Of a stretch of 64,000 nt of DNA, positions 38,454-59,580 are shown in pieces. Under the pieces are notes generated by a model. That model saw only the letters and a program-made list of their open reading frames with translations, was not told where the DNA came from and made no database searches. The stretch covers positions 62,001 to 126,000 of the forward strand of contig DASSPH010000077.1 of assembly GCA_035699745.1 (NCBI GenBank), written 5' to 3'. A program made the translations under genes and the position numbers. The DNA is from Vicinamibacterales bacterium. GTDB lineage: Bacteria > Acidobacteriota > Vicinamibacteria > Vicinamibacterales > 2-12-FULL-66-21. How positions within the stretch are numbered: position 1 is the first letter of the stretch; each line of letters begins with the position of its first letter.

Positions 38454-41447
38454 ATGCGTATCCGATGGGGGCTGATTTTCGGAGCACTCGCGCTGACGTC
38501 GACAGTCGCGTCTGCGCAAACCACGGTCTTTCTCAGTTCATCCACCAACCGGGAAGTGTGGCGAGGGGAGTCCGCAGGGGCGACCTTCGGCGCCTACCTG
38601 GACCGAGGGGAGTTGAGCGGCGACTCGCGGCGCGATCTCATCATGGGATCGCCGACCTGGAACGGCAACCAGGGGCGCGTCTACGTCACCTTCAGCGGTC
38701 CGGTGCTCGGCGGGGAAGTTGCCGCCGCGACCGCGCCGGTGATCCTGACCGGCGCCTCCGCCGGGGACCGGTTCGGCACGGCGACCGCGGCCGGCTGGAT
38801 CACCAGCCGCGAGTTCGATCTTCCACAGTTGAGCCGCGACCTCGTGGTCGGTTCGCCGACCGCCGGTTCGAACGCCGGCGCGGTCTACGTCTTCAAGCGC
38901 GGCCTGTTCGTCAACGGCGCGCGACTCACCACCGCGGACGCCGTCCTGACGATCACCGGGCAGGCGGGCGATCGCATCGGTGAAGCGCTCGCGACCGGCG
39001 ACATGGACGGCGACGGCTACCGCGAGATCATCGTCGGCGCTCCCGGCAACAACAAGGTCTACGTCATCAAGGGCGGGCCGTCGATCAGCGGGACGATCAA
39101 CCTGTCTTCGCAGTCGCCGCTCGTCACCATCACCGGACCGGCCGGCGTGGACGTCGGGAAGGTGCTGGCCGCGGGTGACATCACCGGCGACACGTCGTAC
39201 GACCTCGTCGTCGGCGCCCCCGGCACGGCCCCCGCGGGCGCGGTTTACATGGTCGCCGGAAGCGCCGCGGGTCTCCCCGCCACGGTGAACCTGGCAACGC
39301 AGGCGACCGCGACGTTCACCGGCATCGACGGCGGCGATCGCGCCGGCGCGAAGCTGACGATCGGTCCCTTCGACGCCGACGCGAAGTGGGACCTCGTCGT
39401 CGCGGCGCCGGACGCGGCAGGGCCGTCGAACGCCCGCGCGGGCGCCGGCGAAGTCTACGTGCTCTGGGGACGGACGTCGCTGACCTCCCGCGCGTTTTCG
39501 GCCGCCGACGTCACGATCTTCGGCGCCGGCGCGGGGTTCCACACCGGTGCGGCGCTGGCGATGGGCGACGTCGATCGTACGGAGGTGTACGACCTGGCGA
39601 TGCTCGCCTCCGGGGCATCCGGCATCGGCGAAGCGCACGTCGTCCTCGGCCGCGCCCGCGCGCTCTTCCCGGCGACGATCGACCTGAACAGCGGTATGGA
39701 CCGGCGCGTCATCGCCGATCCGGCCGCCGGGCAGATGCAGAACGTGCTCATCTACGACCACACCGGCGAAGCGGCGGAGGACATCGTGGCGGCGTTCCCC
39801 GGCGCGACCGAGGGCAAGGTCTACATCACGTTCTCGCCGCTGCCGCACGGCACGATCCTCTATCCGTCCGATACCGCGGTCATCGGCGGCACGTCGGCGG
39901 CTTTCCAGTGGAACGCGGGAGCGAACTCCGATCTGTACCGGCTCACGGTGGGCACCGCGGAAGGGGCGGCGAATCTGTTCGACTCCGGCGAGCTGGCGGC
40001 GACGTCGGTCGCCATGCCCGCCAGCTTCCCGACGAACCAGACGCTGTACCTCCGCCTGGCCAGCCGCGTCGCCGGCACGTGGCGCAACGCCGACACGACG
40101 TTCACGGTCCTGCCGGGCGCCACGTTCATCTATCCGACGAACAACGTCTCCGGCGTGAGACCGACCTTCTTCTCCTGGTCGGCGGTGACGAGCGGCGCCA
40201 CTTATCGTCTGCTGGTGGGTACCACGGCGGGCGGCAACGACGTCGCCGACAGCGGTACCATCAGCGCGACCTCGTATCGTGTCTTCTCGCTGCCGGCGGG
40301 ACGCACGCTGTTCGCGCGGGTGATCTCGACGTACAACGGCGGCTCGACGTCCAGGGACGTCACGTTCACGAGCGCGCCCACCGGCACGACGGGCGCCGAC
40401 GCGCCCGGCACCGGCATCGGCACCAACTTCGGCGGCGGCACGGGCGGCGATGCGCTGCTCTACAACTCGGGCAGCGGCGCGTGGTCGCTGCAGATCGCCA
40501 ATGCGACCGGCTTCTCCGGAGCCGACGGCGGGGTCTGGTCTGCCGGCTGGGTGATCAAGAGCGGCGATTTCAACGGCGACGGCGTGTCCGATCTCTTCTT
40601 CTACGATCCGGCGACCGGCCGCGCGTTCAAGGGGTTGAACACGGGCGGCAGCTTCACGTTCGTGCCGTTCACCTGGGGCAGCGGCTGGTCGATCTACGTC
40701 GCCGACCTGAACGGCGACGGGCGTTCGGACGTGTTCGTCTACAACACCGCCAGCGGCCGCTGGTACCGCTGCATCAGCCAGATCGACAACAGCTTCGTCT
40801 ACACGAACGGCGGCACGTGGTCTCCGAACTGGAGCATCTATCCGGGCGACTTCAACGGCGACGGCCGTGCCGATCTGTTCCTCTACAACGCGAGCGGGGA
40901 TGCCAACCGCGGCCGCTGGTATCGCGTTCTCAGCAATGCCGACGAGTCGGTGACGTACGTCGCCGGCGATCTGGTGTGGCGGAACGACTGGACGGTCACT
41001 CCCGGCGACTTCAACGGCGACGGGATCACGGACCTGTTCCTCTACCGCTCGACGGGCGACTGGTACCGCGTCCTGTTCACCCCCGACGGCGTGGTCTATG
41101 ACGGCGGCGCCTGGTCGCCCGGGTGGAACGTCTCCCGCGGCGACTTCAACGCGGACGGGCGCGCCGACCTCTACGTCTACAACCCGTCCACCGGACGCTG
41201 GTTCGTGATGATCACCGAGTCGAACGGCGGGATGACGCCATACGGCGGCGTGACGTGGGCCTCGGGGTTCCAGGTGACGATCACCGACGTCGACGCCGAC
41301 GGACGCGCCGATCTGCTCCTCTACAACCCGGCCGACGGGCGGTGGTTCCAGTGCATCACCATCGCCCCCGGCGAGTTCCGGTTCAACACCGGCAACTTCG
41401 GCGCGGGCTGGACCGCCGTGGTCGCGGCGCGCACGATCCTCCCGTAG
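38454..41447 (+). CDS. Secreted FG-GAP protein with Ig-like pair and seven-repeat propeller
   Basis: The product has 997 residues. The signal peptide spans about 1-22 (cleavage after A-S-A). Residues 25-465 hold FG-GAP repeats of integrin type, for example G-D-M-D-G-D-G-Y-R-E-I-I-V-G-A-P and G-D-I-T-G-D-T-S-Y-D-L-V-V-G-A-P. Residues 465-640 are two Ig/fibronectin-like units, each starting with a Y-P-S/Y-P-T motif. From 665 to the end run seven units of about 47 residues with the core W-S-x-G-W, then D-F-N-G-D-G-x-x-D-L-F-L-Y-N. The acidic loops suggest calcium binding. The C-terminal module is shared with four other genes (45-59 kb), plus a broken one. There is no cell-wall anchor. It is probably extracellular or on the outer membrane. 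Confidence 0.85.
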   Translation: MRIRWGLIFGALALTSTVASAQTTVFLSSSTNREVWRGESAGATFGAYLDRGELSGDSRRDLIMGSPTWNGNQGRVYVTFSGPVLGGEVAAATAPVILTGASAGDRFGTATAAGWITSREFDLPQLSRDLVVGSPTAGSNAGAVYVFKRGLFVNGARLTTADAVLTITGQAGDRIGEALATGDMDGDGYREIIVGAPGNNKVYVIKGGPSISGTINLSSQSPLVTITGPAGVDVGKVLAAGDITGDTSYDLVVGAPGTAPAGAVYMVAGSAAGLPATVNLATQATATFTGIDGGDRAGAKLTIGPFDADAKWDLVVAAPDAAGPSNARAGAGEVYVLWGRTSLTSRAFSAADVTIFGAGAGFHTGAALAMGDVDRTEVYDLAMLASGASGIGEAHVVLGRARALFPATIDLNSGMDRRVIADPAAGQMQNVLIYDHTGEAAEDIVAAFPGATEGKVYITFSPLPHGTILYPSDTAVIGGTSAAFQWNAGANSDLYRLTVGTAEGAANLFDSGELAATSVAMPASFPTNQTLYLRLASRVAGTWRNADTTFTVLPGATFIYPTNNVSGVRPTFFSWSAVTSGATYRLLVGTTAGGNDVADSGTISATSYRVFSLPAGRTLFARVISTYNGGSTSRDVTFTSAPTGTTGADAPGTGIGTNFGGGTGGDALLYNSGSGAWSLQIANATGFSGADGGVWSAGWVIKSGDFNGDGVSDLFFYDPATGRAFKGLNTGGSFTFVPFTWGSGWSIYVADLNGDGRSDVFVYNTASGRWYRCISQIDNSFVYTNGGTWSPNWSIYPGDFNGDGRADLFLYNASGDANRGRWYRVLSNADESVTYVAGDLVWRNDWTVTPGDFNGDGITDLFLYRSTGDWYRVLFTPDGVVYDGGAWSPGWNVSRGDFNADGRADLYVYNPSTGRWFVMITESNGGMTPYGGVTWASGFQVTITDVDADGRADLLLYNPADGRWFQCITIAPGEFRFNTGNFGAGWTAVVAARTILP

Positions 41448-41459
41448 CGCCCGCGGTCG

Positions 41460-41535: not shown

Positions 41536-42465
41536 TTGGCCCTGCCGTCGCTGTCCATCGTTGTCCCGGTCTACAACGCCGAACACTCTCTCGCCGCTCT
41601 CGTCGAACGGCTGCATCCGGTCCTGAGCGCGGCCGCCGCGACGTTCGAAGTCATTCTGGTGGACGACGGCAGCCGCGACGGCAGCTGGCGGGCGATCGAG
41701 GACCTGCACGCGCGGTATGGCTGGGTCCGCGGTATGCGCATGATGCGCAACTACGGCCAGCACAACGCGACGTTGTGCGGCATCCGCGACGCGCGCGGCG
41801 ATGTCGTGGTCACGATGGACGACGACCTGCAGCATCCGCCCGAGCAGATACCGGTGCTGCTGGCGAAGCTCGAGGAAGGCTACGACGTCGTCTACGGATC
41901 GCCGTCGGCCGAGCGCCACGGGCTGTGGCGCGACCTGGCCTCACGGATCACCAAGCTCGCGCTGCAGAGCGTGCTCGGCGCGACGACGGCGCGGCAGGTG
42001 TCGGGGTTCCGCGCGCTGCGCACGCACCTGCGCCAGGCCTTCGCCGATTTCCGCGGCGCGTTCGTCTCGATCGACGTGCTGCTGACCTGGTCGACGACGA
42101 AGTTCACCGCCTGCCGCGTGCCGCACGAGTACCGCAAGTTCGGCCGCTCGAACTACACCTTCTTCAAGCTCGTGATCCACGCGCTCAACATGCTCACCGG
42201 CTTCTCGACGCTGCCGCTGCAGTTCGCCAGCCTGCTCGGCTTCGCGGCGATGCTGCTCGGCATGGGGCTGCTGGCCATGGTGCTGGTCCGCTACCTGATT
42301 CACGGTGTCGTCATGCCGGGCTTCACCTTCCTCGCGTCGGTCATCTGCCTGTTCTCGGGCACGCAGCTGTTCACGCTGGGGATGATGGGCGAGTACCTCG
42401 CGCGCGTGCACGACCGAACGCTGGAACGGCCGATCTACGCCGTCGCCGAGCGCACCAGCGCGTGA
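41536..42465 (+). CDS. Family 2 glycosyltransferase, polyprenyl-phosphate type (ArnC/GtrB-like)
   Basis: The product has 309 residues from a TTG start. The GT-A fold has S-I-V-V-P-V-Y-N-A-E, L-V-D-D-G-S-R-D-G-S, the second acidic motif M-D-D-D-L-Q-H-P-P-E-Q and Y-G-S-P-S-A-E-R-H. Two membrane helices follow at about 230-295 (L-G-F-A-A-M-L-L-G-M-G and F-L-A-S-V-I-C-L-F-S-G). These enzymes transfer a sugar to undecaprenyl phosphate for use on the other side of the membrane. The stop overlaps the next GTG (GTGA), so the product likely works with the aminotransferase. TAGAAT at 41510 may be its -10 box. Confidence 0.88.
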   Translation: MALPSLSIVVPVYNAEHSLAALVERLHPVLSAAAATFEVILVDDGSRDGSWRAIEDLHARYGWVRGMRMMRNYGQHNATLCGIRDARGDVVVTMDDDLQHPPEQIPVLLAKLEEGYDVVYGSPSAERHGLWRDLASRITKLALQSVLGATTARQVSGFRALRTHLRQAFADFRGAFVSIDVLLTWSTTKFTACRVPHEYRKFGRSNYTFFKLVIHALNMLTGFSTLPLQFASLLGFAAMLLGMGLLAMVLVRYLIHGVVMPGFTFLASVICLFSGTQLFTLGMMGEYLARVHDRTLERPIYAVAERTSA

Positions 42466-43595
42466 CCGGCTACCGCATTCCCTTCAACCGCCCCGCGGCG
42501 GTCGGCGCCGAGATCGAGTACCTGCGCCGCGTGCTCGCCGAAGGGCACTGGTCGGGCGACGGCCCGTTCACCCGGCAGTGCCACGAACGGCTCAAGCGCG
42601 CAACCGGCGCGCATCACGTGCTGCTGACGACCTCGTGCACGCACGCGCTCGAGATGGCGGCGCTCCTGCTCGAGGTGCGGCCGGGGGACGAGGTGATCCT
42701 GCCGGCGTTCACGTTCGTCTCGACCGCGAATGCCTTCGTGCTGCGCGGCGCGACGCCGCGCTTCGCCGACATCATGCCGGGCACCCTGAACATCGACCCG
42801 GCGCACGCGCGCCGTCTGCTGAGCGAGAGAACCCGGGCGATCGTCGCGGTGCACTACGCCGGAATCGGCTGCGACATGGACGGGCTGCAGGCGCTCGCCG
42901 CCGATGGCCGCGTCGCCATCGTCGAGGACAACGCGCACGGGTTGTTCGGATCGTATGCCGGGCGGCCGCTGGGATCGTTCGGCGCGCTCGCCACATTGAG
43001 CTTTCACGAGACCAAGAACGTCACCTGCGGCGAGGGGGGCGCGCTGCTGGTGAACGATCCGGCCCTGGTGCAGCGGGCCGAAATCCTGCGCGAGAAGGGG
43101 ACCAACCGCACGGCCTTCTTTCGCGGCGAGACCGAGAAGTACACCTGGGTGGACGTCGGCTCCAGCTATCTGCCGTCCGAGTTGAACGCGGCGGTGCTCT
43201 GCGCGCAACTCGAGCGCGCTGACGCGATTCAGGCGCGGCGGCGGGTGCTGTGGCTGCGCTACCGCGACGAGCTGGCCGGCTGGGCCTCGCGGCGCGGCGC
43301 GGCGCTGCCGGCCGTCCCCGACGGCTGCGATCCGGCGTGGCATCTCTTCTACATCCTGATGCCCGATGCCGCCGCCCGCGACGCCGCCATCCGGGAGCTG
43401 CGCGCCCGCGGCATCCTGGCCGTCTTCCACTACCTGCCGCTGCACCTCTCGCCCATGGGGCGGTCGTTCGGCGGCGCGCCGGGGGACTGCCCGGTCGCCG
43501 AGGCCTCCAGCGCGCGCCTGCTGCGCCTGCCGCTCTTCGCGGCGCTCACGGACGACGAGAGCGCCGCCGTGATCGCTGCCGTCAAGGAGCTGTGA
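42462..43595 (+). CDS. DegT-type aminotransferase, RffA/WecE-like
   Basis: The product has 377 residues. It begins I-P-F-N-R-P, as in dTDP-4-amino-4,6-dideoxygalactose transaminases, and has S-C-T-H-A-L-E-M-A-A, P-A-F-T-F-V-S-T-A-N-A-F, V-E-D-N-A-H-G-L and the PLP lysine K185 in S-F-H-E-T-K-N-V. Further features are G-E-G-G-A-L, E-K-G-T-N-R-T-A-F-F-R and F-H-Y-L-P-L-H-L-S. These strings are specific to the RffA/WecE branch, so a 4-keto-6-deoxyhexose is the probable substrate. This fits the ketosugar made by Gmd or an RmlB elsewhere. The GTG start overlaps the previous stop, and its own stop overlaps the next GTG. Confidence 0.88.
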   Translation: MTGYRIPFNRPAAVGAEIEYLRRVLAEGHWSGDGPFTRQCHERLKRATGAHHVLLTTSCTHALEMAALLLEVRPGDEVILPAFTFVSTANAFVLRGATPRFADIMPGTLNIDPAHARRLLSERTRAIVAVHYAGIGCDMDGLQALAADGRVAIVEDNAHGLFGSYAGRPLGSFGALATLSFHETKNVTCGEGGALLVNDPALVQRAEILREKGTNRTAFFRGETEKYTWVDVGSSYLPSELNAAVLCAQLERADAIQARRRVLWLRYRDELAGWASRRGAALPAVPDGCDPAWHLFYILMPDAAARDAAIRELRARGILAVFHYLPLHLSPMGRSFGGAPGDCPVAEASSARLLRLPLFAALTDDESAAVIAAVKEL

Positions 43596-45946
43596 GCCGC
43601 CTGACCCGCGGCGACGTGCTGGTGGCGCTCGCGATCGCCGCCGCGGGCGCGTGGCTCGGCCTGCGGATTCTCGGGGACTACCGTGCGTCCGGCGGAATCC
43701 CGTCGTTCCAGCAGAGCGCGTTCGGCCCTGCGGTGCTGACCGCCTGCGGGCGCGGGTACCAGAACCCAGACGACGACGCGCTGCCGGCGCTCAAGGCGTT
43801 CCTGCTGTCGCGCCGTGACGCGTTCGACTGCGGCGAGCTTCCCGCGACAATCCCCACGCTGCCGCTGCGCCCGTTCCATCGCGTGACGATGTACATGGAG
43901 CTCGTCGTCGCGGCGCTGTGGAAGACGGGGCCGATTTCGTGGTCCTCGGTGGATCGGCTCAATGCCGCCGCGTTCGGCCTCGATCTCGCGCTGTTGTTCC
44001 TGCTCTGCCGGGCATTTGCCGGCCGCGTGCTGTCGGCGGCGGCAGCGGCGGCGTGGGCGGTTTCACCGCTCCACCTCGCCATCGCCGTCGATCTGCGCGA
44101 TTACGTCAAGGCGCCGTTCATCCTCGGCGCCGCCACGCTGATCGCGTGGATGCTGCGTTCGACGTCGCCGAGACGGGCCTGGCTCGGCGCAGCGGCGGCT
44201 GCGGCCGCCGGTATCGGATCGGGATTCCGCACCGACGTGCTCCTGGTGCTGGTGCCGGTGGTGGCCGCGGTCGCCTTCGCCGGATCCGACACCGCGCGGA
44301 GGCGCCTGCTGTTCAGCGGCGCCGCCGTCGCGCTGTTCGCGATCGTCTCGCTCCCGATCCTGCGCGGTTACACCGGCGGCGGCGTGATCAGCCACGTGCT
44401 GCTGCTCGGACTGACCTCGCCGTTCGACGCAAAGCTGGGGCTCGAGACGCCGATGTACCGCGTCGGTCCCGTCTACCACGACGCGTACGTCTTCAGCCTC
44501 GTGTGGGACTGGACGAACCGCGCGGAAGGAGAGGCGCGCGCGCGCGAGATGACCTTCGGATCGCCGCAGCACGACGCCGCCACGACGGCATACTTCCGGA
44601 GCGTCGTCGCGCGGCTGCCCGCGGACCTCCTGCTCCGCGCGCTGGCAGCGGCGCGCCGGTCCGTCACGGTGAGCCTGTCGCCGCCGTACGACGCAGCACT
44701 GCCGTGGATCGGATCGCCGGGACTCCGCCGGGCGATCGCGCTGCGCGCTGCCGCGCTGCCGGCGTTGCTGCTCATCCTGCCGTTCGCGCTGCTGTTGGCG
44801 TGGATCGCCGCCGTGCGCTGCGGCTGGCGGACGGCGGCGGCAATCGCGGTGCTGGCGCTCACGTTCCCGGCCGCGAGCGCCCTTCAGTTCCACGAGCGGC
44901 ACGTCTTCTACCTCGAGGTCATCCCCCTCTGCGCGTTCGTCTCGACGGTGTCCGCAGTGTGGGCGCTCGCGCGGCGCCGCGAACGCCCGGTGGTGCCGGC
45001 CCGGCGCACCGCCGCTGCCTTCGCGACGGTCGCGCTCGCCGCGGCCGTCGTGGCCGCCGGCTACGCCCTGGCCGCCGCCGTGCAGGCGCGGCAGCTGGCG
45101 TCGTTGTTCGAGCGCTACGAGCGGCTGCCCGCCGCGGCGATTCAGTGGCAGACGGCGCCTCTGGCGAGCGGCGGGCGCCGGCTGACGCCGCTCACCGCAC
45201 CTGCGTCGGCGGTCAGCGCACCGTTTCACGTGCTCGAACTCGATCGCACGCGCTGCGGGCTCGCGCTGTTCCGCTTCGTGCTCCGCTACCACAGTCCGGC
45301 GCCGGCCGATGACGTCACGTTCGATGGATGGGTCAACCTGCTCGACGCGGCGCGCATGCGCGTGTATTTCCCCATCGTCGCCATGCCGAGGCTCGGCGTG
45401 GCGTTCGATGGCCTCGAGCTGCCGGCGCGCGCCGAGTCATGTATCGCGGCCTGGAAGGTCGCGGAGGTCCCGCCGCAGCTGCCAAAGTTCGTCGCGCAGC
45501 TGCCGGAGGACTGGCGGACGCTGCCGCTTCGGCAGAAGGCCGGGACGGACGGCGGGCTCGTGCGCCGGGACGGCACGCGCGTGTACCTGAACGACGTGGC
45601 GTTCCCCGTGGATGCGGCAGTGGTTCAGCCGAAGGTGAGCGGCGTGATCGAGCGCATCGGGGACGAACGTCCCAACGGCTATCTACTCCGGGCGCCGGCC
45701 AGCGACGTTCGCGAAGGCGACGCGTTCGTCCTGGAGGGCAGGGCCGACAGAGGCGGCTTCGTCGTCGGGCTGCAGACCGGCGGGCAGTGGGGACCGCTGG
45801 TGAACGTCGCCCGCAAAGGGGCGTTCCTGGTGGTGCTGCATCCGCCGTCGGCGGGCAGTTATACGGTGGTGGTGGCGGATGACGGCGGGGGAGGGGCGCA
45901 CGGCATCACCGTCGCGCGCGCCGGCTGGCTCCCCCGCGCCCCTTAG
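43592..45946 (+). CDS. Large multi-spanning membrane protein, GT-C-like, with C-terminal soluble domain
   Basis: The product has 784 residues. Ten or so hydrophobic helices occupy about residues 5-500, with a polar first loop. The loop containing A-V-D-L-R-D-Y-V-K-A-P-F and the arrangement of helices resemble dolichyl-phosphate-sugar mannosyltransferase-like (GT39/PMT) proteins. The C-terminal 240 residues are soluble and beta-rich (F-V-L-E-G-R-A-D-R-G-G-F-V-V-G type strands). Gene order after a polyprenyl-phosphate glycosyltransferase and an aminotransferase fits a role in transferring the amino sugar from its lipid carrier onto glycan or protein outside. That is inference; no catalytic residue was proven. 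The last 4 bp overlap the convergent gene. Confidence 0.7.
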   Translation: MSRLTRGDVLVALAIAAAGAWLGLRILGDYRASGGIPSFQQSAFGPAVLTACGRGYQNPDDDALPALKAFLLSRRDAFDCGELPATIPTLPLRPFHRVTMYMELVVAALWKTGPISWSSVDRLNAAAFGLDLALLFLLCRAFAGRVLSAAAAAAWAVSPLHLAIAVDLRDYVKAPFILGAATLIAWMLRSTSPRRAWLGAAAAAAAGIGSGFRTDVLLVLVPVVAAVAFAGSDTARRRLLFSGAAVALFAIVSLPILRGYTGGGVISHVLLLGLTSPFDAKLGLETPMYRVGPVYHDAYVFSLVWDWTNRAEGEARAREMTFGSPQHDAATTAYFRSVVARLPADLLLRALAAARRSVTVSLSPPYDAALPWIGSPGLRRAIALRAAALPALLLILPFALLLAWIAAVRCGWRTAAAIAVLALTFPAASALQFHERHVFYLEVIPLCAFVSTVSAVWALARRRERPVVPARRTAAAFATVALAAAVVAAGYALAAAVQARQLASLFERYERLPAAAIQWQTAPLASGGRRLTPLTAPASAVSAPFHVLELDRTRCGLALFRFVLRYHSPAPADDVTFDGWVNLLDAARMRVYFPIVAMPRLGVAFDGLELPARAESCIAAWKVAEVPPQLPKFVAQLPEDWRTLPLRQKAGTDGGLVRRDGTRVYLNDVAFPVDAAVVQPKVSGVIERIGDERPNGYLLRAPASDVREGDAFVLEGRADRGGFVVGLQTGGQWGPLVNVARKGAFLVVLHPPSAGSYTVVVADDGGGGAHGITVARAGWLPRAP

Positions 45947-49945: not shown

Positions 49946-49954
49946 GCGCCGACC

Positions 49955-52537
49955 TTACTTTGGTTGGGGCTGTGTGGCAAGGATCGTCAATCCGGCCGGC
50001 CACGTCCCATTGGCGAATGTGAAAACGCCAGGCGACTGCGTCACCGCCTGGAACCATCGGCCGTCGGCGGGATTGTAGAGAACGAGATCCGCGCGGCCGT
50101 CGACGTCGAGATCGGTCACGTTCACCTGCCAGCCCGGCGACCAGTTCACCGCGCCGCCGTAGTAGCCGAGCGTCCCGTCTGGCTCTGAGATCACCACGTA
50201 CCACCGGCCGCTCGTCGGGTTGTAGACGAACAGGTCGGTGCGGTCATCGGCGTTGAAGTCGCCGCGCGACAGCGTCCAGCCCGCGGACCACACCCCGCTT
50301 TCATACCGAGGTCCGGCGGCGCGGAAGAACACGCGGTACCAGTCGCCGCTCGCCCGGTACAGGAACAGGTCCGTGCGCCCGTCGCCGTCGAAGTCGCCCG
50401 GCGTGATCGTCCAGTTGTTGCTCCACACCACGTCCCCCTCGACGTAGCTGAAGGTCTCGTCCTGACCGCTGAGGACGCGGAACCAGCGCCCGCGATTGGC
50501 GTCGCCGGTCGCGTTGTAGAGGAACAGATCGCCGCGGCCGTCGCCGTTGAAGTCGGCCGGGTAGATGCTCCAGTTCGGCGACCAGACGCCCGCCTCCGAG
50601 AATCGGAAGCCGCCGGTCAACAGGCTGAAGCCGCGGAACCAGCGTCCGCTGCCCGGGTTGTAGAGGAACAGGTCGTCGGCGCGGTCGCCATTCAGGTCCA
50701 GCACCGTCAGCTGCCATCCCGGGCTCCACGCGAACTCGGTGTAGGCGAAGGTCTCCGTCCCGATCGAGATCCCCTCGACCGCGCGGCCGGTCGACTGGTT
50801 GTAGAAGAACAGATCGCCGCGACGGTCGCCGTTGAAATCGCCGGTCAGGACGGTCCATCCCGCCGCCCATTGCGAGATCGCGCCGTTGACGAACCCGAGG
50901 TTGCGCGGATCGGCGACGGCGAAGAACCGCGATCCGCTCAGATTGTCGTAGGCCAGCACGTCGGCCGCGCCGTCGTCATCGATGTCGAAGGTGGACGAAT
51001 CGTCGCCGAGCTGCCGCACGCTGACCGGAACGCCCGCCACCGTCACCGTCGTCGTGCGAGCGGCGGCGCCCGATACGCCCGCCTGGAGGGTCAGCGTGCT
51101 GCTGCCGGTCTGGGCGCCGCTCACCGTGAGCCAGGGCGCACTGCCGGCGATGGAGAACGCGCAGTCCTGCGCGCTCGCCGTGACCGCCAGGGTCTTGGCG
51201 CCGCCGTGGACGCCGAAGGTGACCAGGTCCCCTCCGAGGCTGAACGTGCACGGCACGCCGGCCTGCGTCACCGTCAGCGTCGCGCCGCCCGCGCTGATCG
51301 TCGCGCTCCGGCCGACGCTGCTCGCGTTGGCGCTGACGCTGAAATCCAGCGAGACGGGGCCGGTCCCCAGCGTATTCGGCGACGTGAACGTGAGCCAGGG
51401 CGCGTTGCTGCTCGCCGTCCAGCCGCAGCCGGTCCCGGTCGTGATGGTCACCGCGCCGGTGCCGCCGCTGGCGGTGAACGATCCCGGCGATCGGGTGACG
51501 TTGTAGGTGCACGCGCTGCCGTTCACGCTCCAGCCCATGTCGCGGAAGATGCCGTGCACGATCAAGCCCGGATCGTGAATCGCTTCCGCGGAGGCGAGGA
51601 ACGGCGTCATCAGCGAGTTCGCATTTCCGACCGTGTATGTCGCTTCGTTCAGGTGCAGATAGCTCGAGAACGCCCCCCAGATCGTCGGCGCGTAGAGGCG
51701 GGCGGGGCTGTTTCCGTTGACGGCGCGCTGCTGCGGTCCGGAGAAAAAGAGATTGCCGCTGGTGAGCTGCGTGCCCAACGCGAACGACGGGTTGGGGAAC
51801 AACGCCGTGTCGAGGAACGCCTGTCCGAACCCATTGACGACGAAGCGATCGTAAATGCCCGGAAGCGCGTTCGGGGTGCCGAAGCCCCACGTCCCCTGAG
51901 AGCTGGCGTTGAGCCAGCCCGAGCCGAAGAAGCCCAGCCCGTGTCCGAGTTCGTGGAGCACGACCGTCACGAAGTCGTGAGTGCCCGCCGGGGCGTTGCC
52001 GTCCGTGCCGAAATACCAGTTCACGTTCGAGCCAAACCGCGTGATGACGTCGGCCTCGGTGGGATCGATGTCGAAGCCGGCGAGTCGGTTGGCGAGCGAC
52101 GACGGATAGTACGTCCCGGGAATCCCGCCCGGCACTTCGCGCCACAGCGCGCCGGTGGCCGCGCTGCCCAGCGTGTTCGGTCCGAGATCGAGGAATCGCG
52201 CGTCGATCGTGATCGGCACCGGCGAATTGAGCTGAGACGCCCACACATCCACCGCGAACTGGAACGCGACCCGCGCCTGCGCGGGAAAACCGGCGTACGC
52301 GACGCTGATCGTCGTGTTGCGCGTGCCGGGCGCTGCGGCAAGGGCGGACGGAGGCAGACGCGGCGGCACATAGCTCGGATGGACCGTGTAATCGGCCAGG
52401 AGCACGCACATCGGTCCGGGCTCGTGAACCGCGCGGATCGGACCGCCCGCAGATGGCGCCGGCCGCGCGCTCCATACGCACGCCAGCAGGAGCGCTGTCA
52501 GACACACGGGCACCGTACTCGACTGTCGAACGCTCAT
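49955..52537 (-). CDS. Secreted zinc metallopeptidase with BACON domains and propeller, middle copy
   Basis: The product has 860 residues. The signal peptide is at about 1-29 (V-C-L-T-A-L-L-L-A-C-V-W). The peptidase domain (60-370) contains the zinc site H-E-L-G-H at 195-199 within V-V-L-H-E-L-G-H-G-L-G-F-F-G, with N-W-Y-F-G-T-D-G just before and S-L-M-T-P-F-L after. Two BACON-type beta domains follow (about 385-570; C-G-W-T-A-S-S-N-A-P-W-L, then S-A-P-W-L-T-V-S-G). Seven propeller repeats close the protein. BACON domains often mediate binding to mucin or carbohydrate. The ATG at 52537 has a purine-rich GGTGAGCGGA upstream and lies 5 bp after the previous gene. The substrate is unknown. Confidence 0.85.
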   Translation of the reverse strand: MSVRQSSTVPVCLTALLLACVWSARPAPSAGGPIRAVHEPGPMCVLLADYTVHPSYVPPRLPPSALAAAPGTRNTTISVAYAGFPAQARVAFQFAVDVWASQLNSPVPITIDARFLDLGPNTLGSAATGALWREVPGGIPGTYYPSSLANRLAGFDIDPTEADVITRFGSNVNWYFGTDGNAPAGTHDFVTVVLHELGHGLGFFGSGWLNASSQGTWGFGTPNALPGIYDRFVVNGFGQAFLDTALFPNPSFALGTQLTSGNLFFSGPQQRAVNGNSPARLYAPTIWGAFSSYLHLNEATYTVGNANSLMTPFLASAEAIHDPGLIVHGIFRDMGWSVNGSACTYNVTRSPGSFTASGGTGAVTITTGTGCGWTASSNAPWLTFTSPNTLGTGPVSLDFSVSANASSVGRSATISAGGATLTVTQAGVPCTFSLGGDLVTFGVHGGAKTLAVTASAQDCAFSIAGSAPWLTVSGAQTGSSTLTLQAGVSGAAARTTTVTVAGVPVSVRQLGDDSSTFDIDDDGAADVLAYDNLSGSRFFAVADPRNLGFVNGAISQWAAGWTVLTGDFNGDRRGDLFFYNQSTGRAVEGISIGTETFAYTEFAWSPGWQLTVLDLNGDRADDLFLYNPGSGRWFRGFSLLTGGFRFSEAGVWSPNWSIYPADFNGDGRGDLFLYNATGDANRGRWFRVLSGQDETFSYVEGDVVWSNNWTITPGDFDGDGRTDLFLYRASGDWYRVFFRAAGPRYESGVWSAGWTLSRGDFNADDRTDLFVYNPTSGRWYVVISEPDGTLGYYGGAVNWSPGWQVNVTDLDVDGRADLVLYNPADGRWFQAVTQSPGVFTFANGTWPAGLTILATQPQPK
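50003..50600 (-). repeat. Long direct repeat in propeller coding sequence (copy 2)
   Basis: This is the partner of 47461-48058. It encodes the C-terminal propeller repeats of the intact middle metallopeptidase. The matching stretch in the third paralogue (from about 52590) is clearly more diverged, so the pair was homogenised or duplicated recently. Confidence 0.8.
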
Positions 52538-52542
52538 TCCGC

Positions 52543-55137
52543 TCACCTCGATTGCGGCCGGGTCGCGACGATCTGCAGCCCGGTCGACCAGGTTCCATTG
52601 GCAAACGCAAACACACCCGGCGCCTGCGTGACGGCCTGGAACCAGCGTCCGTCGTTCGGGTTGTAGAGCACGAGATCCGCGGCGCCATCGACGTTGACGT
52701 CGGTGACGTGAACTTTCCACCCGGCCGACCAGATGACGTCGCCGTAGTAGGCGAGCGATCCGTCCGCCTGTGAGATCACGACGTACCAGCGGCCGCTGGT
52801 CTCGTTGTAGACGAACAGGTCGGTGCGTCCGTCGGCGTTGAAATCGCCGCGCGACAGCGTCCAGCCGGTCGACCACGCGCCGTTCTCGAAGCGGAGCCCT
52901 GCGGCGGTGAAGAACACGCGGTACCACTCGCCGCTCGGGCGATACAGGAACAGGTCGGTGCGGCCGTCGCCGTCGTAATCGCCCGGCGTGATCGTCCAGT
53001 CGGTCCGCCACACGACGTCGCCGTCGAGATACGTGACGGTCTCGTCGGGATTGCTGAGGACCCGGTAATAGCGCCCGTGATTCGCATCGCCGCTGGCGTT
53101 GTAGAGGAACAGGTCGGCGCGTCCGTCGCCGTTGAAATCGCCGCTGTAGATGCTCCAGTTCGGCGACCAGGTGCCGCTCAGGGTGTACGAGAACGAGTGG
53201 TCCGGCTGGCTGATGCAGCGATACCACCGTCCCGTGGCCGTGTTGTAAACGAAGACGTCATCCGAGCCGTCGCCATTGAGGTCCGCGACGGTGACGCCCC
53301 ACCCGGCGCTCCAGGGGAACTCGAAGTAGGCGAAGACCTCGGTGCCGATCGAGACCGCTTTGATCGCGCGCCCGGTGGATGCGTTGTAGAAGAACAGATC
53401 GCCCCGGCCGTCGCCGTTGAAGTCCCCCGGGAGGACGGTCCAGCCCGTGGACCATGTGGACGACGCGCCGGTCGAGAAGCCGGGCGCGGCTGGATTGCCT
53501 CGCGCGAAGAAGTGCGAGCCCGTGGATGGATCGTACGCGAGCAGATCGCCGGCGCCGTCGTGGTCGATGTCGAACGGCGGCGTCGCATGGCCGTTCTGCC
53601 GGACGGCGACTTGCGTGCCATGGATCCCGATGCTGCTCGTCCGCGTGGACGCGCCGGACGGGCCGGCGCTGACCGTCAGGGTCGTGGTGCCGACCGCGTT
53701 GCCGCTCACCGCGACCCAGTCGCCGATCTGCGTGACCGCGGTGATCGGGCAGTCAGGCGCGTTCGTCGTCACCGACAGCGGCGCGGATCCGCCGTTCGCG
53801 CCGAACGTGATCAGGGTCGGCGCCACCGCGTAGGTGCACGGGACGCCGTCCTGAGCGATCGTGAGAGCCTGCCCTGACGCGGTGATCGTCCCCTGCCTCG
53901 CCGCGTGGTTCGGGTTCGATGCCACGCTGAAGTTCACCGTCGCCGATCCGGTCCCGGCGGTTGGCGACGCGAACGCGATCCAGGCGTCGTTGGTGCCGAC
54001 CGACCACGGACAGCCCGCGGCGGTCGTGACCGTCACCGACCCGGTTCCGCCGGAGGAGGGAAACATGGAGGGTGACACGCTGCTGTTGTACGTGCAGGCG
54101 GGCGGCGTCGTGCTGACGGCCCAGCCCATGTCCTGGAACATGCCGCGCGTGATTGGCCCGGGATCGTGGATCGCTTCCGCGGACGCCAGGAACGGCGTCA
54201 TCAACGAGTTGGGGTTGCCGGGCGTATAGGTGGCTTCGTTGAGATGGGCGTAGCTCGAGCCCGGATTCCACGAGGCGGGCGCATACAGCCTGGCGCTCGC
54301 GTTCCCGTTCGCCGCCCGCTCGTTCGGTCCCGAGAAATACAGCGCGTCGCTGGTCAGCTGCGCGGTCAGCGCCGCCGACGGGTTCGGGAACAGCGCGGTG
54401 TTCAGAATCGATTCGCCGGAGCCGTTGACGACGAAGCGGTCGTAGATGGTGGGATAGGTGACGCCGCCGAGCGTGTACCCCCAGCGTCCGTCGCCGCCGG
54501 TCGGCACGCGCCCCGACCCGGTGAACCCGAGGCCGTGCCCCAGCTCGTGGAGGACGACGCTGACGAAGTCGTACTTGCCTGCGGGGGTGGCGCCGTTGGT
54601 GCCGTAGTACCAATTGAACGTGGAACCGAAGCTCGCATAGATGTCGGCGCCCCCAGGATCGGCGTCATAGCCGATCAGCCGGTTGGTCACGGCGACGGGA
54701 TAGAACGTATCCGGCTGACCGCCCGGCACGCCGACCCACAGGGAGCCGGGCCCGGCGGAGCCGAGCACGCCCGCGCCGAGATCCGCGAACTCGGCGTCGA
54801 TCGTGATCGGCTGTGTGGAGACGAGCTGCGCCGCCCAGATGTCGACGGCGAACTGGAACGCGGCCTGCGCCTCCGGGGTGAAGCCGTGATACGTGACGTC
54901 AATCGTCGCGTTGGAGGACGATCCGGGCGTCGTCGCCAGTGAGGCCCGCCGCCATGGCGGCGCCACGTAGCTGCGATGCACCCGGGGATCGGCCAGCAGC
55001 ACGCATCGCGCGCCGTGGACATCCGCCACTCGTCGCGGGCTCAGGGCCTGCGTCGCCGGCACGAGCGTCCACGCGGACACCAACACGAAGGCCGCGAGAC
55101 ACACCCGTGGCCGCACACACGACGACCGTGGGCCCAT
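52543..55137 (-). CDS. Secreted zinc metallopeptidase with BACON domains and propeller, first gene of operon
   Basis: The product has 864 residues with the same plan as the next gene: signal peptide about 1-32 (V-C-L-A-A-F-V-L-V-S-A-W), peptidase domain with H197-E-L-G-H201 in V-V-L-H-E-L-G-H-G-L-G-F-T-G, N-W-Y-Y-G-T-N-G, S-L-M-T-P-F-L-A-S-A-E-A, BACON-like domains at about 385-575 and seven propeller repeats. The HExxHGxGF site lacks the third histidine of the classic metzincin motif, so the family is unassigned. The ATG at 55137 is preceded by AGGAGG with a 7 bp spacer, the best ribosome-binding site in the window. An extended -10 box lies at 55184-55192. The three tandem genes are 5 and 9 bp apart. 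Confidence 0.87.
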   Translation of the reverse strand: MGPRSSCVRPRVCLAAFVLVSAWTLVPATQALSPRRVADVHGARCVLLADPRVHRSYVAPPWRRASLATTPGSSSNATIDVTYHGFTPEAQAAFQFAVDIWAAQLVSTQPITIDAEFADLGAGVLGSAGPGSLWVGVPGGQPDTFYPVAVTNRLIGYDADPGGADIYASFGSTFNWYYGTNGATPAGKYDFVSVVLHELGHGLGFTGSGRVPTGGDGRWGYTLGGVTYPTIYDRFVVNGSGESILNTALFPNPSAALTAQLTSDALYFSGPNERAANGNASARLYAPASWNPGSSYAHLNEATYTPGNPNSLMTPFLASAEAIHDPGPITRGMFQDMGWAVSTTPPACTYNSSVSPSMFPSSGGTGSVTVTTAAGCPWSVGTNDAWIAFASPTAGTGSATVNFSVASNPNHAARQGTITASGQALTIAQDGVPCTYAVAPTLITFGANGGSAPLSVTTNAPDCPITAVTQIGDWVAVSGNAVGTTTLTVSAGPSGASTRTSSIGIHGTQVAVRQNGHATPPFDIDHDGAGDLLAYDPSTGSHFFARGNPAAPGFSTGASSTWSTGWTVLPGDFNGDGRGDLFFYNASTGRAIKAVSIGTEVFAYFEFPWSAGWGVTVADLNGDGSDDVFVYNTATGRWYRCISQPDHSFSYTLSGTWSPNWSIYSGDFNGDGRADLFLYNASGDANHGRYYRVLSNPDETVTYLDGDVVWRTDWTITPGDYDGDGRTDLFLYRPSGEWYRVFFTAAGLRFENGAWSTGWTLSRGDFNADGRTDLFVYNETSGRWYVVISQADGSLAYYGDVIWSAGWKVHVTDVNVDGAADLVLYNPNDGRWFQAVTQAPGVFAFANGTWSTGLQIVATRPQSR

Positions 55138-55183
55138 GAGAGGTCCTCCTGGGGGAGCTGCGCGTGGGGCTGGGGAGACAGTT

Positions 55184-55192
55184 ATCATACCA
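55184..55192 (-). promoter_or_regulatory. Extended -10 of the metallopeptidase operon
   Basis: The minus strand reads TGG then TATGAT (55189-55184), identical to the box before ilvD. Transcription would start near 55177 and give a leader of about 40 bases that includes the AGGAGG site. No clear -35 was found. Confidence 0.5.
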
Positions 55193-55232: not shown

Positions 55233-57044
55233 ATGCCGCCCCCCGCAAACGTCCTGCCATTCCTGGTGGCGTTCGGCGTCACGCTCGCCCTGACCCCCCT
55301 CGTGCGCACGATCGCCCTCCGTTCCGGAGCGGTAGCCTGGCCGCGGCGCGACCGCTGGAAGCAGACGCCGGTGGCGCTGTTGGGGGGAGCCGCGGTCGTC
55401 GCGGGGGTGCTTGCCGCGGCGGTTGTATCGGGGGTGACGGAGGCCCGACAGTGGGCGGTCATCGCCTGCGGCGCGAGCCTGTTCTTCGTCGGGCTGGTGG
55501 ACGACTTCGTCCGCCTCAAGCCCAGCACCAAACTCACCGCGCAGATCGCCGTCGCCTGCCTGGCGGTCACGCTGGGCGTGACGCTTCAGTGGACCGGTTC
55601 CGCGGTCGTGAACGCGCTGTCCACCATCGTGTGGATCGTCGGCATCGCCAACGCCGTCAACCTGCTCGACAACATGGACGGCCTGTGCGCCGGCGTCTCC
55701 GGGATTGCCGCACTGTCGTTCGCTGTCGGCAGCCTGGACGCCGGCGTCGGATCCTACGGCGCCGCGGTCGCGGGCGCGTGCGCGGCGTTCCTCGTCTACA
55801 ACTTCAATCCCGCCTCGATCTTTCTCGGCGACAGCGGCAGCCTGTTCCTGGGCGGCACGCTCGGCGTGCTGGGCGTGTCTGCGGGGGGCAGCGGGCGCGC
55901 CGGCCTGACCTCGACGCTGGCGATTCCGGCGCTGATTCTCCTGATTCCAATCTTCGACACGCTGTTCGTGACCGTGCTCCGCAAGCTGTCCGCGCGGGCT
56001 GCATCGGAAGGGGGGCGCGACCACACGTCGCACCGGCTCGTCGCCTTCGGCTTCTCGGAGCGTCAGACGGTCATCCTGTTCTACGCGCTGGCCGCGGTCA
56101 GCGGCGGAACCGCCGCCGGTCTGGCGCATTTCGCCTGGACGGAGGGGCCGATCCTGCTCGGCGTGCTCTTCCTGGTGCTGATCCTCCTGGCGCTGCAACT
56201 GGCGCGGGTGAAGGTCTACGCCGGACAGGACTTCTCGGCGCTGCGCGACCGCACCTACACGCCGCTTCTGATCGACGTCACCTACAAGCGGCGCATCTTC
56301 GAAGTGCTCCTCGATCTCGCGCTGGTCACCTTCGCCTACTACGCCGCGTACGTCATCCGGTTCGATCGCGACTTCCCGCTCTACTACGACCTGCTCAGCC
56401 GCTCGGTGCCGATCGTCATCGCCTGTCAGATGATCAGCCTCTTCGTCATGGGGGCCTATCGCGGCGTCTGGCGGTACTTCAGCACGTCCGACGTCGGCAC
56501 CTACGTCAAAGGGGTGGTCATGGGGACGACGCTGAGCATTCTGGCGCTGGTCTACCTGTATCGCTTCGAGGGGTATTCGCGCGGGGTGTTCATCATCGAC
56601 GCGATGATCCTCGGGCTGCTGGTGATCGGCAGCCGCGCCTCCTTCCGGCTGCTGACCGACGTCGCCAGCCGCCACGGGATGGGGGAAGGACGCGCGATCA
56701 TCTACGGCGCCGGCGACGGCGGCGCGATGCTCGTCCGCGAGCTGCGGAACAATCCCATCTACCCGTACCGGCCGATCGGCTTTCTCGACGACAGCGCCGG
56801 CAAGGCGAACCGGCGGATTCTGGGAATTCCGGTGTTCGGCGGCGTGGATCGCGCCGCGGCCGTGTTGCAGCAGCACCGGCCGCGCGCCGTGATCCTCAGC
56901 ACGGACAAGATTCCGGCCGAGCACGTGCTTCGGATACAGGCCGCGTGCCGCGCGGCGGGCGTGCCGCTGCTGCGATTCGCGTTCACGCTGCGGGATGTGA
57001 CGGAAGGGGATGGTGTCCCGCCGCACGCGGCGGGACACCCTTGA
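55233..57044 (+). CDS. WecA/MraY-like sugar-1-phosphate transferase fused to the front half of a CapD/WbpM-type protein
   Basis: The product has 603 residues. Residues 1-325 resemble polyprenyl-phosphate glycosyl-1-phosphate transferases: V-D-D-F-V-R-L-K-P, N-A-V-N-L-L-D-N-M-D-G-L (aspartates for Mg2+ and catalysis), Y-N-F-N-P-A-S-I-F-L-G-D-S-G-S and G-G-R-D-H-T-S-H-R-L, across about ten helices. Residues 350-600 begin with four helices (Y-A-A-Y-V-I-R-F-D) and a Rossmann-like domain (I-I-Y-G-A-G-D-G-G-A-M-L). That equals the N-terminal part of nucleotide-sugar 4,6-dehydratases of the CapD/WbpM group, but the dehydratase domain itself is missing. It may start glycan synthesis on undecaprenyl phosphate and sense or bind the donor with its second half. 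Confidence 0.85.
   Translation: MPPPANVLPFLVAFGVTLALTPLVRTIALRSGAVAWPRRDRWKQTPVALLGGAAVVAGVLAAAVVSGVTEARQWAVIACGASLFFVGLVDDFVRLKPSTKLTAQIAVACLAVTLGVTLQWTGSAVVNALSTIVWIVGIANAVNLLDNMDGLCAGVSGIAALSFAVGSLDAGVGSYGAAVAGACAAFLVYNFNPASIFLGDSGSLFLGGTLGVLGVSAGGSGRAGLTSTLAIPALILLIPIFDTLFVTVLRKLSARAASEGGRDHTSHRLVAFGFSERQTVILFYALAAVSGGTAAGLAHFAWTEGPILLGVLFLVLILLALQLARVKVYAGQDFSALRDRTYTPLLIDVTYKRRIFEVLLDLALVTFAYYAAYVIRFDRDFPLYYDLLSRSVPIVIACQMISLFVMGAYRGVWRYFSTSDVGTYVKGVVMGTTLSILALVYLYRFEGYSRGVFIIDAMILGLLVIGSRASFRLLTDVASRHGMGEGRAIIYGAGDGGAMLVRELRNNPIYPYRPIGFLDDSAGKANRRILGIPVFGGVDRAAAVLQQHRPRAVILSTDKIPAEHVLRIQAACRAAGVPLLRFAFTLRDVTEGDGVPPHAAGHP
57012..57039. terminator. Perfect 12 bp hairpin within the last codons, between convergent genes
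   Basis: GGTGTCCCGCCG (57012-57023) pairs exactly with CGGCGGGACACC (57028-57039) around a 4-base loop. It encodes the last residues of the WecA-like fusion and lies 16 bp from the stop of the opposing gene, so it can act as a two-way terminator. It has no T run on either side. Confidence 0.5.
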
Positions 57045-57054
57045 CTACGCGCGT

Positions 57055-59580
57055 TCAGCGTCCGCTGAGCGACGCGATCATCTGCAGGCCCGTCTCCATC
57101 GCGGCGCCGGTGTAGTAGCCGAACTGCGCCGGGATCGCCGAGCTGATGATCTGGAACCATCGCCCGTCCGCCGGGTTGTAGACGATCAGGTCGGCCAGGC
57201 CGTCGCGGTTGATGTCCGTGACCGTCGGGACGAAGCCGCCCGCCCACACGAACGGCGCGTGATTGTACAGCCAGCCGTCACCGGTCGACACCACCACGTA
57301 CCAGTCGCCGGTCGTCTGGTTGTAGACGAACACGTCGTCTTTGCGGTCGCCGGTGAAGTCGCCGACGCGCGGCGTCCAGCCGAGGCTCCACTGGCCGTTG
57401 ACGTAGCGTTCAGGCCCGGTGTTCGTCGGGAAGAAGACCTTGTACCAACGGCCGTCCGTGCCGTAGAGCAGCAGGTCGGTGCGCGAGTCCCCGTCGAAGT
57501 CGCCCGGCATCACCGTCCAGCCGGTCCACCACCGCAGCGAGCCCTCGACATACGCCGAGAAGGCGCCGTTCGGCGCGTTCAGCGCCCTGACGTAGCGGCC
57601 GGTGTCGGCGTTACCGGGCGTCTTGTTGTAGACGAAGATGTCGGTGATGCCGTCGGCGTTGAAGTCGCCGGTGTAGACCTCCCAGTTCCGGCTCCACACG
57701 CCGCTCGTCTGCTGGAAGACCCAGCTGGCATCGGTGAACTGCTTCGTCCAGTTGCCCGTCGCCTTGCTGTAGGTGAAGATGTCGTCGCGGCCGTCGCCGT
57801 TGAAGTCTCCCGCCACGACGGTCAGCCCAGCCGCCCACCCATACTCGGTGAACGTGAAGGTGGTGTCGCCGTTGTTGATGCCGCGCAGCGCGTAGCCCGT
57901 CGCCGCGTTGTAGGTGAGGATGTCGCTCAGGCCGTCGCCGTTGAAGTCGGCGGTGACCACCGAGCTTCCCGCTCCCCATCCGTACCCGTGATTGAGCTCG
58001 GTGAAGGTTCCCAGGTTGCCTGACAGCAGGTACCCGCCGCCGTCGGTGCCGTGGTACGCGAACACGTCGCCGCCGCCCGCGGCGTTGAGGCTGAGCGCGC
58101 GGCTGACGCCGGCGACGAAATACACCGCGTTCGACTGCGCGTCTGCATCGGCGCTGGATCCGGAGACCTTGACGCTGACCCGGACCGCCTGGTTGCCCGA
58201 GACCGCCAGGATGACCGCCGACGGGGACGCGTCATACGCGCGCATCTCCTGCCAGCCGGTGCCTTCGCGCCAGCGCTCGAAGCGATAGAGCAGCGTCCCG
58301 CTGCCGCCCGAGGCCGTCGCCGTCCACGTGACGGACGTGCCGGCGAGCGGCGGCAGCACGTGGCTCGGGTTCAGCGCCGAGATGCTCGGGCCTGCCGGCG
58401 GCGGCGGCGGAGGCGGGGGAGGCGGAGGAACGGTGGTTCCGCCGCCGGCCTGCACCAGGCCGCCACGCATGCCGCCGGTCTGCTGCGTCGCGACGAGCCA
58501 CCGCGAGCTGATGGGATCCATCGCGATCGCGGGGTTGTAGCTGGGCCACTTGCCGTCCCACGCGACGACCAGCGAGGCGGCGGCCTTGGGCGACAGCGTA
58601 TCGTCGAGCTCGACGACGTAGAGGCCCGCGCCCCAGCCCTTGACCGTGAGCAGTGAAGTCCTGGAGGCGTCGTTGTAGCGGATCGTGAGATCGCCCGCGC
58701 CCCACCCGGGATCCTGGCGGTATAGCTTGTGCGCGCTCATGTTGCCGATCGTGTCGATGGTGCGCAGATACGCGTAGTTATTCTGGTACCACGTCGCGGC
58801 GAACGCGTTGATCTGTTTGTTGAACGTCACCGACGGATCGTCCGCCCTCGACGTGTGGTCGTCGAGGTAGAACACGTCGCCGATGCCGGAGAAATCGGAC
58901 TTGCGGAACAGGCGGCTGTAGATGACGCCGAAGATGGGCGCGATGTCGCCATAGCCGGCGGCGAGACACGCGTCGGTCGTCGCGCAGGCCACCCCCGGCC
59001 AGCTCTGATAGTTCACGCCGTCGCCAATCGGCGTGGGCTGGCTGACGCCCAGGTTCGGGCTGAAGCGCACCACGTGCGGCTGCGGCACGAGACCGGTCAG
59101 CCTGATGCCCACGATCCAGTCGGTTCCCGTCCACGCCGCCGACGCCTTTTCGGCGCCGTTGGAGTCGATCCCGATCCAGCCCAGCGGAACGCGGTCAGTG
59201 ACCGTCGGCGTCCCCGAACCGTACCGCACGATACGGCCGAACTCGGTGTGCCCGGACCCCGTCGTCGACAGGTAGGTCACCAGGAACATCGGATCGTTTG
59301 CGGAGCCGCCCGCGGTGACGGTCGACCACCCTGTATACCCTTCATTGCCGCCGGCGATGCTGAATGGAGCGCCAAGGGCGACACCGGAAGCCGAGATGAA
59401 ACGTCCGCGAACGGGTGACCCGGCGAGCGTCTCCAGGTAGACGGTGCCGTCGAACGCCAGACTGTTGCGGCCGGCGGGAATCTCCGCGGTGGACACGCCG
59501 GTGATTGAGATTTGTGCGAGGACTGGTGCGGCAACGAGCAAGGCCATCAGCGTGGCGCCGCATGTGGTTCTTCGGTTCAT
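57055..59580 (-). CDS. Secreted protein: unknown N-terminal domain, polyproline linker, Ig-like domain, propeller
   Basis: The product has 841 residues. The signal peptide ends near residue 23 (V-L-A-Q). Residues 25-370 form an unfamiliar, probably beta-propeller-like domain with repeated short units (W-T-G-T-D-W-I-V-G-I, A-F-A-A-T-W-Y-Q-N, W-L-V-A-T-Q-Q). A run of 11 prolines at about 385-395 separates it from an Ig-like domain (about 400-490, V-T-W-T-A-T-A-S-G-G-S-G-T-L). The C-terminal third is the seven-repeat propeller shared with the other secreted proteins of the window (D-F-N-G-D-G-L-S-D-I-L-T-Y-N and so on). Its function is unknown. A TTGACA box at 59709-59714 is a possible -35. Confidence 0.82.
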   Translation of the reverse strand: MNRRTTCGATLMALLVAAPVLAQISITGVSTAEIPAGRNSLAFDGTVYLETLAGSPVRGRFISASGVALGAPFSIAGGNEGYTGWSTVTAGGSANDPMFLVTYLSTTGSGHTEFGRIVRYGSGTPTVTDRVPLGWIGIDSNGAEKASAAWTGTDWIVGIRLTGLVPQPHVVRFSPNLGVSQPTPIGDGVNYQSWPGVACATTDACLAAGYGDIAPIFGVIYSRLFRKSDFSGIGDVFYLDDHTSRADDPSVTFNKQINAFAATWYQNNYAYLRTIDTIGNMSAHKLYRQDPGWGAGDLTIRYNDASRTSLLTVKGWGAGLYVVELDDTLSPKAAASLVVAWDGKWPSYNPAIAMDPISSRWLVATQQTGGMRGGLVQAGGGTTVPPPPPPPPPPPAGPSISALNPSHVLPPLAGTSVTWTATASGGSGTLLYRFERWREGTGWQEMRAYDASPSAVILAVSGNQAVRVSVKVSGSSADADAQSNAVYFVAGVSRALSLNAAGGGDVFAYHGTDGGGYLLSGNLGTFTELNHGYGWGAGSSVVTADFNGDGLSDILTYNAATGYALRGINNGDTTFTFTEYGWAAGLTVVAGDFNGDGRDDIFTYSKATGNWTKQFTDASWVFQQTSGVWSRNWEVYTGDFNADGITDIFVYNKTPGNADTGRYVRALNAPNGAFSAYVEGSLRWWTGWTVMPGDFDGDSRTDLLLYGTDGRWYKVFFPTNTGPERYVNGQWSLGWTPRVGDFTGDRKDDVFVYNQTTGDWYVVVSTGDGWLYNHAPFVWAGGFVPTVTDINRDGLADLIVYNPADGRWFQIISSAIPAQFGYYTGAAMETGLQMIASLSGR

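Follow-up and report, generated by a model that had tools for sequence, protein, structure and literature searches.

A rare, clustered propeller module with lectin relatives joins varied front ends in an acidobacterial polysaccharide locus

Our analysis showed that five intact genes and one broken gene share one C-terminal propeller module between positions 38454 and 59580 of the window, confirming the original prediction made from the sequence. The window is the whole stretch of 64,000 nucleotides analysed here, bases 62001-126000 of contig C77 in a Vicinamibacterales genome of 6.30 Mb and 110 contigs (Table 1). The module is rare, its six copies are clustered (between 40.4 and 58.1 kb), two of them bear a gene conversion tract, one has a confidently predicted seven-bladed fold, and the partners to which they are joined vary. 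We hold the chances evenly balanced that the module is a lectin-type docking cassette, tethering varied secreted domains to a glycan that would most likely be the cell's own.

Table 1. Propeller genes, conversion tracts and polysaccharide genes, in window coordinates.
Feature	Position	Strand	Details
DegT aminotransferase	8915..10033	+	66% identical to G023-locus DegT
RmlD-like reductase	10018..10881	+	54% identical to G023-locus RmlD
Wzt-like ATPase with Wzt_C domain	32943..34655	-	
Wzm-like ABC-2 permease	34648..35520 (approximate ends)	-	
Wzy_C/O-antigen ligase-like protein	35511..37460	-	
GDP-mannose 4,6-dehydratase (GMD) ORF	37131..38324	+	directly before gene A; 78% identical to G023-locus GMD
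Gene A	38454..41447	+	997 aa; N-terminal FG-GAP repeats, two Ig-like stretches, C-terminal propeller 40416-41444
Family 2 glycosyltransferase (GT2)	41536..42465	+	
DegT aminotransferase	42459..43595	+	
Gene B	45943..47271	-	442 aa; fn3 and propeller 45946-46959, most divergent copy
Gene C, pseudogene	47413..49950 (upper end approximate)	-	HExxH part, BACON, propeller 47416-48462
Conversion tract in C, blades 4-7	47454..48058	-	95.5% identical to D
Gene D	49955..52537	-	HELGHGLGF peptidase-like part, BACON, propeller 49958-51004
Matching tract in D	49996..50600	-	partner of C tract
Gene E	52543..55188 (about; start codon uncertain)	-	HELGHGLGF peptidase-like part, BACON, propeller 52546-53592
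Glycos_transf_4 (WecA-like) fused to CoA_binding_3	55233..57044	+	
Gene F	57055..59580	-	841 aa; front without Pfam match, polyproline, Ig-like, propeller 57058-58119

By its motifs, the module belongs to the VCBS/FG-GAP propeller superfamily, and almost all of its blades have a calcium-loop motif. Propellers of the VCBS type are described with DxDxDG in loop AB, G and W in loop CD and GW in loop DA', and with signal sequences and mixed partner domains (excerpts of PMC8023676). The loop motifs, signal sequences and mixed partners are common to our module, which stands apart within the superfamily: it is a narrow subfamily, its copies are clustered and it has a conversion tract. FG-GAP or FG-GAP_3 scored above the Pfam cut-off in six of the seven window ORFs scanned, the exception being the 5' part of C; fn3 was found in B, and BACON in C, D and E. 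A DxNxD-type loop occurs in all six of blades 2-7 in A, C, D, E and F and in five of six in B, and most blades carry W at both of the loop positions typical of VCBS propellers. Propeller identity is 81% between C and D, 69% for C-E and D-E, 55-60% between A and C, D or E, 42-44% between F and A, C, D or E, and 35-40% between B and all others.

These copies could have been amplified separately from single blades. We took blades 2-7 apart and ranked the true blade order among 720 permutations: it came 1st to 10th in each of the ten pairs that A, C, D, E and F can form, so that these propellers descended whole from one ancestor and separate amplification is ruled out for them. In all five pairs involving B the true order ranked 193 to 377, hence B would be older, separately amplified or internally homogenised. 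The expectation of one common module therefore holds blade by blade for A, C, D, E and F, but not for B, which is out of register and may have a different ligand from the other modules.

The front ends are of only four kinds in the window because C, D and E are tandem duplicates. They follow one another on the minus strand in the order E, D, C, with E ending at 52543 and D starting at 52537, a spacing that looks as in an operon. The reading frame of gene C shifts twice, near 49.78 and 49.23 kb, and three different frames hold its signal-peptide, HExxH and BACON-propeller parts. When 17 front parts were compared all against all by blastp, those of D and E were 54% identical and those of A, B and F had no match at 1e-3. 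Interchangeable front ends had been proposed, and the four kinds (Pfam, blastp), along with more in genome G023, bear this out, but the Ig-like domains named in that proposal had no Pfam match and were judged by eye. Signal peptides, likewise read by eye, suggest that the window proteins are secreted. Rfam (gathering scores) and tRNA scans of the window gave no match.

Within the family of duplicates, a stretch of 605 bp covering blades 4-7 is 95.5% identical between C and D, which share 63.5% identity over the remaining aligned bases. The log-likelihood gain of this tract was 146, whereas 200 shuffles of the mismatches never gave more than 9.7, and synonymous differences fall from 26 in 140 codons in blades 1-3 to 17 in 209 in blades 4-7. 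The tract shows recent gene conversion of blades 4-7: with synonymous differences lowered as well, recent copying fits it better than protein-level selection alone. Such conversion is one way for modules to stay alike while their partners diverge.

The module is uncommon even where FG-GAP sequences abound. Profile A1 gave six full matches in the own genome (506-612 bits), all within one 17.7 kb stretch (C77:102425-120107) and not scattered at random, the next match scoring 52 bits. FG-GAP_3 matched 96 times in the same genome, where 150 of 154 candidates were scored, yet only these six places exceed 52 bits with profile A1, which rules out a generic FG-GAP background. At 1e-40, matches were confined to the own genome, G023 and G034 among 60 genomes (own included); none of the 11 other genomes of the same family matched. 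In the order of G023, three of 161 genomes matched at 1e-30, namely G023, G034 and G480 (13 candidates scored per genome; the own genome is not among these rows). A phylum-wide module is rejected by one match, the own, in 396 genomes sampled at 1e-40, a search that scored about five candidates per genome and could miss weaker copies. Close relatives in named genomes were absent from the 80 loci listed, the best of which was about 30% identical. Generic relatives (77 matched ORFs of loci L017-L096) reached whole-protein scores of up to 172 bits, and apparently complete modules of G023, G034 and G480 scored 244-356 bits; judged by these scores, the gap between module and generic relatives is real but not wide. 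One of the generic relatives, in Comamonas sp. KCTC 72670 (L017, propeller at about 9950-11017), has a similar design: its HEIGHALGFRHEH peptidase-like protein carries a GW-type propeller whose repeats are almost perfect.

We also built a tree of 23 modules, rooted at the midpoint and with long branches to the outgroup. Modules from the window, G023, G034 and G480 cluster in it (98/97), and so do A, C, D, E and F (95/94); support is weaker for the group formed by the other genomes' modules (88/92), and B remains unplaced. Most simply, each lineage may have multiplied the module and fused its own partners to it, but homogenisation by conversion inside each genome would yield an identical tree. 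The module is a narrow, recombining subfamily of lectin-like propellers. Integrin-type propellers in bacteria have reportedly been the subject of a published study; the papers listed in our literature searches included none on this subfamily in a setting like that of the window.

A wide range of partners was found in G023, where 13 match rows correspond to 11 genes, one of which occupies two rows and has its tail on a contig whose end overlaps by 141 identical bases; with 13 of 39 candidates scored, the count is at least 11 copies. These partners include at least eight kinds other than those of the window: subtilase with P-domain, GSDH, a PQQ/BamB-like propeller, NHL repeats, M12B reprolysin, Ig/cadherin repeats, GDSL lipase and a glycosidase-like front that matches GH42 weakly (22.7 bits for a cut-off of 21). 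BACON, known from the window, is a further partner. Of the remaining genes, one has only a signal-peptide-like start and one is a fragment. The linker is often BACON or InlB-like repeats. One G023 gene (L103:3596-5401) is the sole case in which the module stands ahead of its partner, a GDSL lipase.

Folds were predicted for two of the six modules. That of E is a closed seven-bladed propeller of 7 x 4 = 28 strands (41 rows, pLDDT 94.1, pTM 0.90), as had been anticipated; B conforms in part, with six confident blades and a first blade and fn3 part mostly below pLDDT 50 (34 rows). The nearest solved relatives of the module are lectins. A profile search of solved structures ranked 9oee first (3e-32), followed by 8w20 ('Secreted esterase', 5.5e-20), CRTAC1, integrins and then PLL3 (4.4e-6). 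Foldseek with the E fold also placed 9oee on top (3.0e-12; its title names UmbA4 bound to S. griseus TUA), with Bap1 (6mlt) at rank 41 (1.5e-5). VIA-align, a second look at the best 1000 Foldseek matches with families judged from the top 50, gave the PVL-type lectins PVL and AAL2 Z-scores of 25.9-26.6 and the PLL/PHL lectins about 21-22, amid unrelated seven-bladed propellers at 20-21 (others 20-22). In that ranking, the PVL group alone stands clear.

A candidate sugar pocket can be outlined from these relatives. The glycan contacts Trp668 and Tyr551 of UmbA4 occupy equivalent blade positions (excerpts of PMC13274773), and in a register set by eye (offset 31, fitting all three residues named in that paper) they correspond to the aromatic residue after G-R-W here. 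This position is aromatic in five or six of blades 2-7 in A-E and in three of six in F, an agreement that amounts to a hint. The GW of loop DA', said to help build the sugar pocket in PVL and tachylectin-2 (excerpts of PMC8023676), is retained in most blades of the window modules. PVL and AAL2 resemble the module in their seven blades, calcium-loop motif and GW loop, but identity is only 14-15%, and the available text on these lectins mentions no enzyme fusions. Their essential sugar-contact Asn/Asp, which opens the connecting segment, and their pocket His (excerpts of PMC4483166) are not evident by eye in the window modules, so that the ligand is not predictable from them. Conservation at the presumed pocket columns, picked after viewing the alignment, was not significantly in excess (p = 0.053).

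The genomic setting is that of polysaccharide synthesis. The propeller genes are interleaved with glycan-synthesis genes, a GT4/methyltransferase is also nearby, and sugar-nucleotide and glycosyltransferase genes run on to the right. The propeller genes had been thought to surround an export locus; they do lie inside a polysaccharide locus, but Wzt and Wzm (32.9-35.5 kb) stand to one side. A heparinase II/III-like protein with N and C domains is encoded on the plus strand at 31028-32980, between glycosyltransferases and Wzt, and is perhaps a lyase for the glycan of the locus. The WecA-like protein has relatives in six of the 11 other same-family genomes (34-48% identity). One export locus conserved across the family is rejected: nine of the 11 genomes match the own Wzt only in its ATPase part (42-46% identity), and their glycans therefore probably differ.

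Elsewhere, the expected association with polysaccharide genes holds in part. We read neighbours by eye and scanned 13 of them against Pfam; in G023, contigs of at least 7 kb gave usable context. All six own copies are in a polysaccharide locus, as are three of the eight G023 genes with usable context (of 11). These three lie on contigs C337 and C412, among GMD, DegT, RmlD, a hexapeptide transferase, a carbamoyltransferase, GT2, GT4 and a sugar transferase. The other five of eight adjoin gyrase A/topoisomerase IV, hydantoinase B, asparaginase, a class-III aminotransferase or DUF1501, and the copies of G034 (2/2) and G480 (1/1) are also elsewhere, with ferredoxin oxidoreductase, gyrase A/topoisomerase IV and leucyl-tRNA synthetase as neighbours. 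Altogether there are 17 genes with context, of which nine belong to polysaccharide loci; these nine form two clusters and count as two observations. Contigs C55, C34 and C67 of the own genome also have full-length DegT, and none of the three has a module match. DegT was found in G023, G034 and G480 too, full-length on four G023 contigs, one of them with propellers; neither these genes nor the WecA-like relatives in other genomes alter our interpretation.

How might such proteins work? Each would be exported via its signal peptide, and the lectin-type seven-bladed propeller would serve as a reusable, usually C-terminal tether, gripping a glycan by pockets near the blade junctions. The front end would thereby be held at the glycan, be it peptidase-like, fn3/Ig-like or a second propeller in the window, or the subtilase, sugar dehydrogenase, lipase, M12B peptidase and others of G023. 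The ligand would most likely be a polysaccharide made by the own locus; bound to it, the proteins would coat the matrix of their own cell, much like Bap1 and RbmC in Vibrio. Duplication would have multiplied the cassette, and recombination among propeller genes would have kept its copies similar. In Vibrio cholerae, the propeller of Bap1 and RbmC binds the cell's own exopolysaccharide while their other domains differ (excerpts of PMC10102183). The likeness lies in secreted proteins with one shared propeller and varied other domains; the differences are eight blades there and seven in E, adhesion domains there and peptidase-like and many other partners here, and binding that was demonstrated there and is only proposed here. 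We favour this docking because lectins are nearest by profile and fold, one module sits on unrelated fronts in two genera, the GW of loop DA' is kept in most blades, six own copies share one polysaccharide locus, three G023 copies lie where GMD, DegT and RmlD are shared, and Bap1/RbmC set a precedent. Against it stand the copies outside such loci, the reduction of nine locus copies to two clusters, the module-free contigs of polysaccharide type, the PVL contact residues that are not evident by eye, the p-value of 0.053 and the foreign glycan of UmbA4. Weighing these, we think it probable that the module binds a glycan, and a toss-up whether the ligand is the cell's own polysaccharide.

The propeller might instead be a lectin that recognises foreign glycans, of plants, fungi or other bacteria, aiming secreted enzymes in the manner of a carbohydrate-binding module. 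UmbA4, the closest solved relative, binds the surface glycan of competitor Streptomyces (excerpts of PMC13274773), several partners are hydrolases or oxidoreductases, and most G023 copies are outside polysaccharide loci. Yet the six own and three G023 copies are in such loci with shared genes, and the fn3, Ig-like and propeller-only partners are not enzymes, which leaves targeting of foreign glycans a minority view, for us rather unlikely. The resemblance to UmbA, in which a peptidase-like front is likewise coupled to a VCBS-type propeller, the closest solved one to ours both by profile and by Foldseek, could even mean that these genes code for components of an umbrella-like antibacterial particle. 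We find this very improbable: UmbA binds UmbB through a trypsin-like domain (excerpts of PMC11062931), for which Pfam and NCBIfam gave no match in the window proteins. UmbA4 has six blades and targets other bacteria; E has seven blades. UmbC-type ALF repeats matched none of four genomes searched, but the same search matched none of 14 controls either.

A propeller that binds no glycan at all, being a stable calcium-loaded end domain or a protein binder spread by recombination in a duplication-prone locus, is to us slightly less credible than a lectin for foreign glycans. VCBS/integrin-like propellers do include protein binders, and integrins and CRTAC1 also match the profile; the conversion tract shows that recombination alone can spread copies; and the PVL contact residues are not evident by eye. 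Nevertheless, lectins are nearest by profile and by fold, and the aromatic contact position of UmbA4, in our by-eye register, is kept in most blades of A-E.

If docking to the own polysaccharide is true, the 'double-sided tape' design of Bap1 and RbmC would reach outside Vibrio and would serve enzymes as well as adhesion; whether it generalises in this way is a question that the Bap1 authors themselves raised (excerpts of PMC10102183). A set of unannotated FG-GAP proteins would gain a testable role, and enzymes could be displayed on bacterial polysaccharides by means of a natural tether. Our most far-reaching and tentative suggestion, which we think more doubtful than docking itself, is a matrix-display system, in which an own-polysaccharide-binding cassette, homogenised by conversion, carries peptidases, lipase, sugar dehydrogenase and adhesion domains and makes the exported glycan a changeable enzyme scaffold.

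The peptidase-like front ends have features of their own. The HELGHGLGF parts of C, D and E are probably relatives of the NCBIfam metalloprotease family NF038122, scoring 53.2 (5' part of C), 54.9 (D) and 70.9 bits (E), all below its curated cut-off of 80. A PDB sequence search with the peptidase part of E gave no match up to E 10. Metzincins, one of which, Mep72, is reportedly secreted in biofilms, have the zinc motif HExxHxxGxxH/D. Read by eye, C, D and E all have HELxHGLGxxG, with Gly or a Thr region at the position of the third ligand, and so depart from that motif. Further along, a conserved A-I-H-D-P-G in all three (e.g. 54.1-55.1 kb), also seen by eye, may provide the third zinc ligand.
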